Shown piece by piece: positions 8,061 to 30,972 of a DNA stretch of 64,000 nt (position 1 is the first letter of the stretch; every line of letters starts with the position of its first letter). Origin of the DNA: Faecalibacter rhinopitheci (GTDB lineage Bacteria; Bacteroidota; Bacteroidia; Flavobacteriales; Weeksellaceae); the NCBI RefSeq assembly GCF_015234135.1, contig NZ_JADGIK010000001.1:62001-126000 (forward strand), in the 5' to 3' direction. The position numbers were made by a program, and so were the translations under genes. Below the pieces are notes generated by a model. The model searched no databases. It was not told the origin of the DNA and saw only the letters and a list, made by a program, of their open reading frames with translations.

Positions 8061-9434
8061 ATGTTTCAAAGTCTTCAAGATAAATTAGACAAAGCTTTAC
8101 ATACCTTAAAAGGTAAGGGACAAATTACAGAAATTAACGTTGCAGAAACGATTAAGGAAGTAAGAAGAGCCTTAGTTGATGCCGATGTTAGTTATAAAGT
8201 AGCTAAAGATTTTACAGATACAGTTAAGAAAAAAGCCTTAGGATCAGATGTTTTAACATCTTTAAATCCTAGCCAATTAATGGTTAAAATCGTTCATGAC
8301 GAATTAACTGAATTAATGGGAGGTAAGCAAGAGGATATTAATATTGATGCTAATCCTTCAATCATTTTAATTGCTGGTTTACAAGGTTCTGGTAAAACAA
8401 CTTTCTCAGGTAAATTAGCTAATTTCCTTAAGACAAATAAAAACAAAAAAGTATTATTAGTAGCTGGGGATGTATACAGACCTGCAGCTATTAATCAGTT
8501 ACAAGTTTTAGGTGAGCAGATTGGAGTTGATGTCTTTGCTGATTTAGAAAATAAAAATCCAGTTGAAATTGCACAAAATGCTTTAGCTCAAGCAAAACAA
8601 AACGGTAATAATGTTGTTATTATAGATACAGCGGGTCGTTTAGCTATTGATCAAGAGATGATGGACGAGATTCGTCGAGTACATCAAACTGTTAATCCAA
8701 CAGAAACTTTATTTGTTGTAGACTCTATGACAGGTCAAGATGCTGTAAATACAGCCAAAGCGTTTAACGATGTATTAAATTATAGTGGAGTTGTATTAAC
8801 TAAGTTAGATGGTGATACACGTGGTGGAGCTGCTCTAACAATTCGTACTGTTGTAGATAAGCCAATAAAGTTTATTTCTACAGGAGAAAAGATGGAAGCT
8901 TTAGATATTTTCTATCCGGAACGTATGGCAGACCGTATCTTAGGAATGGGGGATGTTGTTTCGTTAGTAGAAAAAGCACAAGCACAATTTGATGAAGAAG
9001 AAGCTAAAAGACTTCAAAAGAAAATTGCAAAAAATAATTTTGATTTTGATGATTTCTTAAAACAAATTCAACAAATCAAACGTATGGGTAACATGAAAGA
9101 TTTAATCGGAATGATCCCAGGAGCTGGTAAAGCATTAAAAGATGTTGAGATTAGCGATGATGCTTTTAAAGGTGTTGAAGCTATTATACATTCTATGACT
9201 CCAAAAGAAAGACAGAATCCAAATATTATTGATAATTCACGTAAAAAAAGAATTGCGTCTGGTTCTGGTACAACTTTACAAGAAGTGAATCAATTATTAA
9301 AACAATTCTCTGAAATGGGTAAAATGATGAAATTCATGAACTCATCTCAAGGAAAAACCATGATGGAAAAAATGTCTAAAAATATGCCGGCTGGTGGTTT
9401 CCCTGGAATGCCAGGAGGAATGCCTAAAATGTAA
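8061..9434 (+). CDS. ffh: Signal recognition particle protein Ffh (SRP54)
   Basis: 457 residues in the usual order: N-terminal helical bundle (1-90), GTPase G domain (about 95-300) and a Met-rich M domain (about 320-450). GTPase motifs are GLQGSGKTT at 106-114, DTAGR at 189-193 and TKLD at 247-250, followed by the SRP-specific GDTRGGA. The C-terminal tail is rich in Met, Gly and Pro, as expected for the signal-sequence-binding groove. With 4.5S RNA and FtsY it targets nascent membrane proteins to SecYEG. The FtsY alternative is excluded by the M domain. Single-gene unit with promoter and terminator; the accessory patch begins just downstream. Confidence 0.98.
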   Translation: MFQSLQDKLDKALHTLKGKGQITEINVAETIKEVRRALVDADVSYKVAKDFTDTVKKKALGSDVLTSLNPSQLMVKIVHDELTELMGGKQEDINIDANPSIILIAGLQGSGKTTFSGKLANFLKTNKNKKVLLVAGDVYRPAAINQLQVLGEQIGVDVFADLENKNPVEIAQNALAQAKQNGNNVVIIDTAGRLAIDQEMMDEIRRVHQTVNPTETLFVVDSMTGQDAVNTAKAFNDVLNYSGVVLTKLDGDTRGGAALTIRTVVDKPIKFISTGEKMEALDIFYPERMADRILGMGDVVSLVEKAQAQFDEEEAKRLQKKIAKNNFDFDDFLKQIQQIKRMGNMKDLIGMIPGAGKALKDVEISDDAFKGVEAIIHSMTPKERQNPNIIDNSRKKRIASGSGTTLQEVNQLLKQFSEMGKMMKFMNSSQGKTMMEKMSKNMPAGGFPGMPGGMPKM

Positions 9435-9504: not shown

Positions 9505-9519
9505 TATTATGTTAAATAG
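9505..9519 (+). repeat. 15-base motif copy 1 (forward)
   Basis: TATTATGTTAAATAG, forward orientation, 20 bases after the ffh terminator. It contains GTTAAAT (9511-9517), which fits the integron core-site consensus GTTRRRY. It is the left partner of the inverted copy at 10176-10189. Confidence 0.7.
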
Positions 9520-9540
9520 AATTCTAATTTAAATAATTAA

Positions 9541-9883
9541 AACACAACAGAAGGTCGAATATTCATGTTCTTAGAATATTACAATTAACTAACAGAAGAT
9601 GAGCTTATTAAAATATATAGGCTTAATAAACACAATTTATGTATAATAAATCAAGGAAATAGAAACGAAATAAGCACCATTGATTTAAAATTGGAATTTG
9701 TTGATTCAAAGCAATTACATAATTATTTAACTAACCGCAATAGTTTTATAATGCCTTATGAAAATAACTATCAATGATAAATATATTGTTTTTTTAAATA
9801 TAGAAGCAGACTAAAAGTTTACTTTACAATCTACAGCAACTAATTATCCAGGAGGTTATTGTTTTTATGCTAGAGCTAAGTGA
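9541..9883 (+). pseudogene. Decayed gene remnant, probably cassette-borne
   Basis: A translated thread can be followed through this stretch despite lesions: a start-like ATG at 9565, an in-frame TAA at 9586, then about 60 open codons beginning LTEDELIKIYRLNKHN to a TGA at 9775, a +1 shift into NDKYIVFLNIEAD, a TAA at 9812, and an open tail ending YPGGYCFYARAK before a TGA at 9881. The pieces abut in order, which is what a decaying single gene of about 110 codons would give. No family recognised. It lies between inverted copies of the 15-base motif, like the intact SMR gene next to it. Confidence 0.55.
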
Positions 9884-10177
9884 AGTTAAAATTTATCATA
9901 TGATTCAATAAAGCCATCTTATACAAATCTTAAGACAAGATAGTGCACTTATCATTAGCTAAGGGTTTCAAATTGTAATCAATTAAAAGCTTGTAAATAA
10001 TAAACCAAAGACAATGTATTACAATCGTGATTATTTGTATTTAATTCATATTATCTTATTCTTAAATATATTCTTGAACACAAACTTTCTAAAATAATTT
10101 TCCAATTCAAACTATTACAACCATTGTATTATAATTTCCACATAAGCTTCTATTAATAGGGCCTCTTAATCTTCTTA

Positions 10178-10251
10178 TTTAACATAATAAAGATTATTAA
10201 TAATAAAATAACAAAGTTATTTTTATTATTATAATATATATTATGTTAAAT
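10178..10251 (+). repeat. 74-base imperfect palindrome, integron attC-like
   Basis: The ends ATTTAAC (10178-10184) and GTTAAAT (10245-10251) fit the attC outer boxes RYYYAAC and GTTRRRY. The outer 13 bases pair perfectly. An inner stem pairs AATAATAAAATAAC with GTTATTTTTATTATT leaving one extrahelical T. Length and single-base bulge fit attC sites. Against it, the unpaired spacer that normally adjoins the outer boxes is missing, and no integrase gene is in the window. Abutting terminal repeats of two small mobile elements would look similar. Confidence 0.45.
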
Positions 10252-10327
10252 AGTGTTTTTAGATAACCCTATTTAAAGGAATAATAATATTATTAATCTA
10301 TTTTTGTTTTCATCTTGAAAAGTATAT

Positions 10328-10663
10328 ATGAAATATTATTTATTCTTAGCTGCTGCAATAATTTGTGAAGCTATTGGGACATCGTTTTTAAAAAAGACTG
10401 AGCAATTTACTAAACCAATTCCAACAGCAATATTTGTTATAGCAATGGTATCTTCTTTCTTCTTATTAAGCAATGCACTCAAAGGTATACCTATCGGTAT
10501 TTCTTATGCTATATGGTCTGGTGTAGGAATTGTAGTAATATCACTCGTAGGATATTTTATATATAATGAAAATCTAGACCTACCTGCTATAATTGGAATT
10601 GTATGTATAATAATAGGTGTAATTATCATAAACGTCTTTTCTAGTTCTACAACCCATTCTTAG
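10328..10663 (+). CDS. Small multidrug resistance (SMR) efflux protein, EmrE/QacE subclass
   Basis: 111 residues with four membrane segments. The essential acidic residue is Glu14 in ICEAIGTS. The strongest signatures are YAIWSGVGIV and LDLPAIIG, nearly identical to those of EmrE and QacE, and the C-terminal SSSTTHS recalls the EmrE tail. These proteins work as antiparallel dimers in the inner membrane, exchanging protons for quaternary ammonium compounds, biocides and dyes. The gene stands alone, 17 bases from a downstream inverted copy of the 15-base motif and 76 bases after the palindrome. SMR genes are frequent integron cargo, which fits the context. The SugE/Gdx guanidinium branch is less likely from the signatures. 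Confidence 0.93.
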   Translation: MKYYLFLAAAIICEAIGTSFLKKTEQFTKPIPTAIFVIAMVSSFFLLSNALKGIPIGISYAIWSGVGIVVISLVGYFIYNENLDLPAIIGIVCIIIGVIIINVFSSSTTHS

Positions 10664-10676
10664 GATTAATTTATTC

Positions 10677-10691
10677 CTATTTAACATAATA
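10677..10691 (-). repeat. 15-base motif copy 4 (inverted), right border of the SMR unit
   Basis: CTATTTAACATAATA, the exact inverted partner of the copy at 10239-10253. It starts 14 bases after the SMR stop codon. Downstream an imperfect hairpin (CATGACTTTTAT with ATAAATATCATG) continues, but no GTTRRRY box was found within about 140 bases, so any attC here is incomplete. Confidence 0.65.
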
Positions 10692-10774: not shown

Positions 10775-10805
10775 TTGTTATTTGGAATAATTTAAAATAA
10801 ATTTG
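10775..10805 (+). promoter_or_regulatory. Promoter of the TonB receptor operon
   Basis: TTG (10775-10777), a 20-base spacer and a perfect TAAATTTG (10798-10805) match the Bacteroidota -33/-7 consensus. The predicted transcription start is just before the ATG at 10824, so the leader is very short. This also rules out translation from the TTG at 10803. Confidence 0.7.
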
Positions 10806-10823
10806 CATTCGAATTCAGAACGT

Positions 10824-13559
10824 ATGAAAAAAGGATTATTAACATTAGGAATGCTAGTTGGATGCTTGCTATCTGTACACGCTCAGAGAACTATTTCTGG
10901 TAAAGTATTGGACGAAAATAAGAATCCGTTATCTAATGTTTTGGTACAAGATCCAATTACTAAAAAATGGACACATACTAATACTGATGGTAAATACTCC
11001 ATTGAAATTTCTAATGATAATTCGTATATCATCATTTCTCAATTAGGTAAAGATACTCAAGAAATATTTCTTTCTCCCGAAGATAAAAATATAGATGTAA
11101 TACTTTATAAACAAAGTCTTCGCTTGGATGAAGTTGTAATCACACCAAAGCGTAAAAAAGATTATTCCGAAATAACTTTAGGTAAAGAAGCGATTGAAAA
11201 TGTTCAAGCATTCTCATTAAACGAGGTTTTAGAGCAGTTACCAGGACAATTTACACCAGATTTTAATAACAATCAATTCAAAAATATAGTTTTTCGTACA
11301 GCCGATAATAACGTTAATATTTCAAAATTAGCAAATGGATCTAAAGATCGCCAAGATTATTTTGCGAATAGAGCTTATGGAACATCTGTAGTATTAAATG
11401 ATATTCCGTTGTCTAACAACGAAAATATGCAAAGCTACTCTCCCAACACTTCCGACCCATTTAGTCAGAGTACGGTAGCCAATAATATTAGTAATGGGTC
11501 TGATAACGTTTTTGCAAATAGTAATTACGGATATGATCTTAGAGATATCGGAACAAATAACATTGAGGAAATAAAAGTTATACAAGGTGTTGCTCCAGCT
11601 AAATATGGAGATATGTCTACAGGGCTTATATTGGTTACTACAAAAGCTGGTGAGACGCCTTACAGAGCTTCAATTTCATTACGAGATGCAACGACTGAGT
11701 ATAATTTGGCTAAAGGATTTAAAATAACTGATCGGAATTTTTTGAATACTAATTTCAATTTTCTTGAATCGAACGCTGATCCTAGAAATAGTTTAACAAA
11801 ATTCCATCGATTTTCAGGAAATATAGCTTGGAAAACAAATAATAAGGCTTCTAACCTTACAAATACTTTTACAGTAAATTTTTCTAAAAATTTGGATAAA
11901 GTAAAAGGCAATCCCGATGATTTCTCTGATCCTAAAGTAAAAAATGACAAGACGATTATTCGATTTTCAGATAATTTGAAATGGAACTTAAATAAATCTT
12001 GGATTGATACGTTTAATATTGATGCAAATTTTAGCTACGAAAAGACTGTTTCGTTCAAAGAAGAATGGCGAAATCAAGGTATATCAGCAGTTACAAATGC
12101 AACACAAACTGGTATTAATAATGCTATAATTATTCCTGCACAATATTTTTATAATATGAATGTAGAAGGAATTCCAATTTCTACTTATTTTAATGCTGAG
12201 GGAATAAAATCAATTACAACAAAATCTGAATGGATTCATACTCTCTCTGTTGGTATTTCCTCTAGAACAAGTTCTAATATTGGACGAGGAAGATATTCTA
12301 CTGGAAATAATGTACCTAATATTTTAACGCTAAGTGGTGCTTCTGGAGGATTAGGTTACAGAGATTATAATTTTCGTAATTCTAAGACTGTATTACAATT
12401 GGCAGCTTATGCTGAAGACCAGATCACAAAGTACTTCTCTAATGATGCTGTTTATAAATTAGACTTAGGTTTACGTTATGAAAATCAATTGGGTTATTCT
12501 TCGTTTCAACCACGTGTAAATACATCTTATGCTTTAAATAAGTTTATTCGCCTGCGTGGAGGGTTAGGTCTTACTAGTAAAACGCCTTCTCTTAGCCAGT
12601 TATATACTGGTGAGAGATACTATGATTATTTACTAGGACAAGGAATTTATTCGGTACCTAATACAGGATATGTTGGTTGGATTCAGACCTATCAATTACC
12701 AGGAGATAATCAAAATTTAAAACCTATAAAGACCATGAACACCGAAATTGGTGTAGATCTAAATTTTGGTTTTGGAAATCTAAATATTACTGGGTTTTAT
12801 AATAAGATGACGGATGGAATTACTTCTTTACAAGATCCATTTTATAAGCAAATAGCTTTAATTGAATTAAATACAGCTGGTCCTACTCCAACTTATGATG
12901 TGATAGGTAATAAAGACCAATACTTCTTTTCAAATAATTTAGTTAATGGATTGACGTCAGAAGATAAAGGTATTGAAGCTTTTATGACATTTAAGCGCAT
13001 TAAACCTTTAAATTTAGATATTCAAATCAATTCATCTTATATTCAAACAGCAAATAAATCTCAGGTTAAAGAGTACAAAATATCAAGTGTTCTTACATCT
13101 AATGAAAAATATGGTGTATACAATGGTTTAAAAACTAATACTGAACAACTTACACTAGGTTCTAATTTTAATTATCATTTAAAAAAGGTAGGATTATTAC
13201 TTTCATTAAGAACAGAACATATTCTTATTATGAATCATGACCGTAACCAAGTTCGAAACCCAATTGGATATCTAGATAAAGAATTTCTATATCATGAAAT
13301 TCCAGTTCAGGATCAAGGAAATACAGATTTGTATGGAAATTTAATTAATAGTCCTATTACTGGTTCAGAAAAATTGCAAAAATCAATTCATAATATTCAT
13401 TTTAGATTATCTAAAGATTTCTTAAATGGATTTAAGGTTTCAGTTTACACAACAAATATTTTTGGTTTAAAGCCTACTTACATAGATTCTACAAACGATC
13501 GAAAAATTTATCCAATTGCACAATTTAGTCTTGGAGGAAAACTAGAATATTCATTTTAA
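10824..13559 (+). CDS. TonB-dependent receptor with N-terminal carboxypeptidase-regulatory-like domain
   Basis: 911 residues from the ATG at 10824; the longer TTG start overlaps the -7 element. A signal peptide ends near VHAQ. Then comes a carboxypeptidase-D-regulatory-like domain (about 22-105, TISGKVLDENKNPLSN and TNTDGKYSI), a plug domain (about 115-285) closing with APAKYGDMSTGLILVTTKAG, and a 22-strand-type barrel ending in Phe (KLEYSF). Such receptors import iron chelates, haem, cobalamin or glycans through the outer membrane with TonB energy. No SusD partner follows, which argues against glycan uptake. It opens a four-gene operon ending with a di-haem peroxidase, so a metal or haem-related substrate is plausible but unproven. 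Confidence 0.92.
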   Translation: MKKGLLTLGMLVGCLLSVHAQRTISGKVLDENKNPLSNVLVQDPITKKWTHTNTDGKYSIEISNDNSYIIISQLGKDTQEIFLSPEDKNIDVILYKQSLRLDEVVITPKRKKDYSEITLGKEAIENVQAFSLNEVLEQLPGQFTPDFNNNQFKNIVFRTADNNVNISKLANGSKDRQDYFANRAYGTSVVLNDIPLSNNENMQSYSPNTSDPFSQSTVANNISNGSDNVFANSNYGYDLRDIGTNNIEEIKVIQGVAPAKYGDMSTGLILVTTKAGETPYRASISLRDATTEYNLAKGFKITDRNFLNTNFNFLESNADPRNSLTKFHRFSGNIAWKTNNKASNLTNTFTVNFSKNLDKVKGNPDDFSDPKVKNDKTIIRFSDNLKWNLNKSWIDTFNIDANFSYEKTVSFKEEWRNQGISAVTNATQTGINNAIIIPAQYFYNMNVEGIPISTYFNAEGIKSITTKSEWIHTLSVGISSRTSSNIGRGRYSTGNNVPNILTLSGASGGLGYRDYNFRNSKTVLQLAAYAEDQITKYFSNDAVYKLDLGLRYENQLGYSSFQPRVNTSYALNKFIRLRGGLGLTSKTPSLSQLYTGERYYDYLLGQGIYSVPNTGYVGWIQTYQLPGDNQNLKPIKTMNTEIGVDLNFGFGNLNITGFYNKMTDGITSLQDPFYKQIALIELNTAGPTPTYDVIGNKDQYFFSNNLVNGLTSEDKGIEAFMTFKRIKPLNLDIQINSSYIQTANKSQVKEYKISSVLTSNEKYGVYNGLKTNTEQLTLGSNFNYHLKKVGLLLSLRTEHILIMNHDRNQVRNPIGYLDKEFLYHEIPVQDQGNTDLYGNLINSPITGSEKLQKSIHNIHFRLSKDFLNGFKVSVYTTNIFGLKPTYIDSTNDRKIYPIAQFSLGGKLEYSF

Positions 13560-30957: not shown

Positions 30958-30972
30958 TATTATGTTAAATAA
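30958..30972 (+). repeat. 15-base motif copy 5 (forward), downstream of recN
   Basis: TATTATGTTAAATAA, 14 of 15 identical to the copies near the SMR gene, 19 bases after the recN terminator stem. AAAACCCTAAT follows, similar to the CCCTATT seen near the other copies. Confidence 0.55.

Follow-up and report, generated by a model that had tools for sequence, protein, structure and literature searches.

A probable chromosomal dif site doubled into an invertible hairpin, with putative Xer-type gene modules beside it, in Faecalibacter-like Weeksellaceae

Genes and repeats between ffh and a TonB-dependent receptor-like gene

The window, as we call the whole stretch of 64,000 nt from Faecalibacter rhinopitheci that was analysed, carries between ffh and a TonB-dependent receptor-like gene two gene-sized units, a hairpin lying between them and four copies of a 15-base motif (Table 1). 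The 15-mer was found exactly at 9505-9519 (+), 10239-10253 (+) and 10677-10691 (-), and with one mismatch at 10175-10189 (-); the copies run right-left-right-left, as a preliminary description of this DNA had claimed. When the motif was searched in the 2.89-Mb genome, the 14-mer TATTATGTTAAATA occurred exactly six times, four of them inside this 1.2-kb interval, and the 11-bp core TTATGTTAA[AG]T was observed four times in the interval against 0.026 expected in an interval of the same composition. A further exact copy of the 14-mer (TATTATGTTAAATAA) lies at 30958-30972 of the window, after a terminator-like hairpin and without a XerC arm, near the peak of the window's cumulative GC skew.

Table 1. 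Features of the interval, in positions of the window
Feature	Position	Strand	Remarks
ffh (signal recognition particle protein)	8061-9434	+	named from sequence; left neighbour in most relatives
Outer-left XerD half-site TTATGTTAAAT	9507-9517	+	no recognisable XerC arm; just after ffh terminator
Unit 1, decayed gene for a lipoprotein of ~270 aa	9518-10176	+	tblastn pieces with stops; intact in the same place in G001, G006, G007
Proposed chromosomal dif locus: head-to-head pair of dif-like sites in an imperfect hairpin of 77 bases	10176-10252	.	fold, conservation, skew, covariation
Site A, inverted partner: ATTATTAATAA-TCTTTA-TTATGTTAAAT	10177-10204	-
Site B: XerC arm TATTATTATAA, centre TATATA, XerD arm TTATGTTAAAT	10224-10251	+	matches single-site dif of related genera
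Unit 2, module with SMR gene	10252-10678	+
SMR (EmrE/Qac-like) efflux protein, 111 aa	10328-10663	+	PF00893, 5.3e-27
Outer-right XerD half-site TTATGTTAAAT	10679-10689	-	no recognisable XerC arm
TonB-dependent receptor-like gene	10803-13559	+	right neighbour in most relatives

The core of the 15-mer, TTATGTTAAAT, matches at every base the XerD arm of Escherichia coli dif (GGTGCGCATAATGTATATTATGTTAAAT, as printed in PMC3025954, which also holds dif predictions for Bacteroidota) and is likewise identical to the XerD arm of Vibrio cholerae dif1 (as printed in PMC3089051). Judged by this identity of sequence, the host XerC/XerD recombinases would land on the repeated motif, whose core is the XerD arm of dif. 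Genes for such recombinases lie on contigs C12 (XerD-like) and C40 (XerC-like) of the genome; their best models score 329 bits (equivalog cut-off 329.6) and 294 bits (equivalog cut-off 335), respectively, both under the cut-off.

The gene content proposed earlier for the two units was borne out. The decayed gene of unit 1 consists of pieces, with stops and frame changes, of a lipoprotein gene that is intact in G006, and the transporter gene of unit 2 is intact, with a clear Pfam match to the SMR family (Table 1; the protein stays below the exact cut-offs of the NCBIfam EmrE/Qac subfamily models).

The head-to-head pair and its place on the chromosome

Sites A and B point away from each other, each in the 11-6-11 frame of dif, an arrangement that agrees with the earlier suggestion that the palindrome is a tyrosine-recombinase site. 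Site B is the best match on its own chromosome to a dif-like query, and the XerC arm of the pair only loosely resembles the CCTATAA of related genera. The hairpin proved real: folded as DNA, it reaches -17.5 kcal/mol against a mean of -6.9 for shuffled sequences (z -5.2). The two sites share one palindromic core, and on folding each arm would be matched with its own kind, XerD with XerD and XerC with XerC, leaving a 6-base centre that pairs imperfectly. In an alignment of 14 species, the arms of the stem covary (25 double-sided pair changes versus 10 in shuffles; covariation score 0.156 versus 0.066), and two central mismatches and one extra, bulged T on the A side stand at constant places in all 14. 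The covarying stem can reflect selection for the folded or cruciform form, or a palindrome perfected by template switching; the lasting central mismatches and the bulge argue that the imperfections matter.

Every one of the 14 species sampled from the genus carries the pair, at one locus per chromosome, and in most of these relatives it adjoins ffh, the TonB-receptor gene or both. A loose head-to-head pattern matched exactly in 13 of the 14 genus genomes and in one of 285 other genomes of the family, where the inner sequence is unrelated; a stricter pattern, which asks for the XerC-side ATAA in A as well as in B, found the own genome alone among 396 Bacteroidota and none of the 395 others. Three other genera of the family (five genomes) carry a single-site dif, CCTATAA-TATATA-TTATGTTAAATA, and no second XerD arm was found within about 1.5 kb of it in any of the five. 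Because these single sites share the centre of site B, the family's dif most probably corresponds to B, to which A was added as an inverted partner.

GC skew, which resolves the terminus only to tens of kb, places the pair beside the switch of sign expected for dif in three complete genomes: in G001 and G008 the change from plus to minus is no more than about 20 kb away, and in G011 it is 40-120 kb away. In the window itself, which comes from a draft assembly, the cumulative skew has its maximum 20-28 kb to the right of the pair. The position of dnaA was considered as a guide to the origin as well (it lies 0.36-0.83 Mb from the pair in genomes with both on one contig) and was rejected, because in G001, G008 and G011 the skew origin lies far from it (near 1.1 Mb, 1.0 Mb and 2.2 Mb, respectively, with dnaA at 0.4 kb in these chromosomes).

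A chromosomal dif is taken to be a single 28-bp site. The locus of the 14 species shares with the dif of E. coli, V. cholerae and Bacillus subtilis the 11-6-11 frame, the same XerD arm, the position at the terminus and the presence of host XerC- and XerD-like recombinases, but differs in having two head-to-head sites with different centres (TATATA and TCTTTA) in a conserved hairpin, and XerC arms that are AT-rich and covarying. We consider it highly probable that the locus is the chromosome dimer resolution site; the host XerC and XerD would bind and recombine at this doubled dif, and chromosome dimers would thus be resolved.

The core of the pair occurs in both orientations relative to the flanking genes, one way in the window, G006, G008, G011 and G013, and the opposite way in G001, G005, G007, G010 and G012. 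One inversion is recent: between G010 and G011 the flanks are collinear and 98.6-99.3% identical, and 70 bp at the pair are 100% identical but inverted; the AAAT/AAGT variants at the arm ends were not carried along but remained with the flanks, and therefore the ends of the inversion lie inside the XerD arms. This core of ~70 bp may occasionally be flipped, by recombination of one XerD arm with the other or by template switching between them. Replication template switching of a quasi-palindrome can account for both the flipping and the covariation without XerCD; for the inversion as such, XerC/XerD recombination and replication switching within the hairpin would do equally. A doubled, flipping form of the chromosomal dif is likely.

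Gene units beside the pair

The preliminary description had called for a comparison of relatives at this interval, and the presence of the units does differ among them, an outer half-site appearing exactly when extra DNA is present. On the left, half-site and extra DNA occur together in 7 species and are both missing from 5 (Fisher p 0.001), and on the right they occur together in 6 and are both missing from 6 (Fisher p 0.002), neither value being corrected for kinship. This count covers 12 related genomes per side, with extra DNA sorted by eye on the intervals; G004, which is split over two contigs, was counted on the left only and G002 on the right only, and G003 ends at a contig edge.

The contents of the two slots vary. 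On the left, G001, G006 and G007 have an intact lipoprotein gene of ~270 aa, which is in decay in the window, G004 and G008; the gene seems to have been inherited within the genus rather than exchanged. On the right, the SMR gene occurs in the window and G006, a NUDIX gene in G005 (with a trace in G004), and a gene for a 130-aa lipoprotein in G007; G001 and G009 have DNA there that holds no intact gene. Half-site and extra DNA are both missing from this slot in G008, G010, G011, G012, G013 and G002. Elsewhere in the genus (G002, G003, G009, G012), no XerD site was found near SMR homologues. The SMR gene was also considered as a dif passenger in its own right; its homologues in 80 genomes, drawn from many genera, are not consistently accompanied by a XerD motif, and therefore the gene as such is no dif passenger. 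In a comparison with plasmids, the DNA of the units gave only distant SMR matches, in Acinetobacter, and no plasmid relatives of the lipoprotein.

The motif copies bound the units, and the units are cassette-like, as had been proposed. Both enclose a gene between inverted Xer sites, the arrangement of dif modules. In no species is a XerC arm recognisable beside the outer copies, so that they fall short of a full dif site and are doubtful substrates for the standard XerCD reaction. We therefore file the units as dif-module-like and not as members of that class, since a dif module is defined by complete ends and the outer sites here consist of the XerD arm only, with no full XerC-centre-XerD sequence at both bounding sites.

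Each unit may be described, with less certainty than the pair, as a Xer-type gene module bounded by two inward-pointing XerD arms. One of these would belong to dif; the other, at the distal end of the module, would have come in from outside or stayed as a remnant. Genes appear to come and go in both slots while dif stays, and modules would arrive beside it; the inverted sites flanking each unit allow inversion, with no simple excision. That Xer-type gene modules lie beside dif is plausible, and we hold the question to be about evenly balanced.

A bolder possibility is that XerC and XerD recognise the extruded A/B hairpin as a folded, strand-asymmetric dif and capture single-gene modules beside it, in the way that the IntI of integrons acts on attC. 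The central mismatches and the bulge, kept in a stem that otherwise covaries, fit such capture. We regard it as unlikely.

Competing readings and related Xer systems

The first proposal of the preliminary description was that of integron cassettes lacking an integrase (CALIN), the hairpin being an attC site. The fit of the ends to the consensus RYYYAAC/GTTRRRY is literally true, one base is bulged as in attC, and the single-gene units and the imperfect hairpin are shared features; SMR genes are, moreover, typical integron cargo. The consensus boxes are, however, the outer 7 bases of the 11-base XerD arm. An attC site requires an unpaired spacer, and the absence of the spacer near the boxes, which had been conceded from the start, was confirmed: 13 bp are paired without a break from the outer end, straight through the region where attC would be open. 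The hairpin occurs once per genome, at the terminus and in the 11-6-11 arrangement of dif, in 14 of 14 members of the genus, including those without units. An Rfam search of the interval gave nothing above the gathering score, and the three recombinases scored with the integron-integrase model reached 132, 101 and 191 bits against a cut-off of 265, four weaker PF00589 matches having been left out of this scoring. The 191 bits belong to a XerA/IntI-like tyrosine recombinase of 364 aa (G000:C3:30138-30620). Integron cassettes are for these reasons very improbable, and of the earlier interpretation the observation itself, the unit boundaries and the recombinase-type palindrome stand, and the integron does not. 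The other explanation offered at the time, a pair of miniature transposons whose terminal inverted repeats are the 15-mer, would likewise account for units bounded by inverted repeats. No copy of a unit was found elsewhere in the genome, the gene content after the outer copy varies between species, and two of the four ends belong to the central hairpin that the units share and that is conserved alone in all relatives, which makes this a poor fit as well and very improbable.

The locus may also be compared with phages that integrate at dif, a site used by ssDNA phages of Bacteroidota (PMC9719478, PMC3091885). In CTXphi, two dif-like sites in opposite orientation, about 90 bp apart, fold into the attachment hairpin (PMC3089051), and the inverted pair could be a domesticated attP(+) hairpin of this kind, left by a dif-integrating phage or element. 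Like attP1/attP2 (PMC3089051), A and B are close inverted dif-like sites that are predicted to fold into one with an imperfectly paired centre; they differ in being chromosomal, genus-wide and next to ffh, with no phage carrier. There is no phage gene in the interval, site B is the family's canonical dif and no variant of it, and no viral contig was found to have the same pair with the XerC-like ATAA on both sides: head-to-head XerD arms do occur on viral contigs, but none are like A/B. On seven viral contigs, XerD-arm-like copies (TTATGTTAAA) of either orientation are clustered within 60-75 bp. A phage remnant seems improbable to us. XerD is also reported to unload SMC in Bacillus subtilis, and the outer copies might be extra places beside dif where XerD alone binds, with a role in organising the chromosome, for instance in SMC unloading, the neighbouring genes being incidental. 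They do have the XerD arm alone and do lie at the terminus beside dif, but on each side five or six species lack them, and their presence follows that of the extra DNA; we give this explanation little chance.

The closest likeness to the units is found in the dif/pdif modules of Acinetobacter (PMC6449649, PMC13141974), which have also been reported on chromosomes (PMC12907356) and among which the D modules of plasmids are units with inward-pointing XerD arms (PMC13141974). Shared are the alternating inverted Xer sites around small genes, the D polarity with XerD arms inside, and SMR cargo; on the Acinetobacter plasmid pACI-35f6, a SMR gene and its TetR neighbour lie between inverted pdif sites with the XerD arms inside, the polarity of unit 2. 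The present units differ in lying at the primary chromosomal dif, in Bacteroidota, and in having XerD half-sites only at their outer ends, and the would-be C module between A and B is nothing but the hairpin core. The own genome also includes two circular plasmids (G000:C7 and G000:C5; 127-bp end overlap) with several complete dif-like sites, CTATAA-N6-TTATGTTAAGT, which surround single small genes and a Xre/RES toxin-antitoxin pair (C7 84-1063), and similar dif-like sites occur on small contigs of G007, G011 and G013. In the literature searched, which was covered in part, we found no description of a head-to-head dif, or of dif modules or pdif in Flavobacterium or other Bacteroidota.

Taken as a whole, the locus is probably a chromosomal dif of Faecalibacter-like Weeksellaceae that has been doubled into an invertible hairpin, with putative Xer-type modules beside it. 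Gene traffic by dif modules is known mainly from Acinetobacter plasmids, and the present units, one of them carrying an efflux gene, would extend dif-module-like traffic to the primary dif of a chromosome in Bacteroidota. A conserved, flipping, inverted dif pair with two centres would test how far the Xer/FtsK system tolerates, or uses, a second site. Differing from attC/CALIN in the paired ends, in the want of an integron integrase and in its single terminus copy per genome, the pair is a natural case to compare when asking how attC-like hairpins might have developed from dif; and capture by a folded dif, if true, would amount to a cassette system run by housekeeping recombinases.
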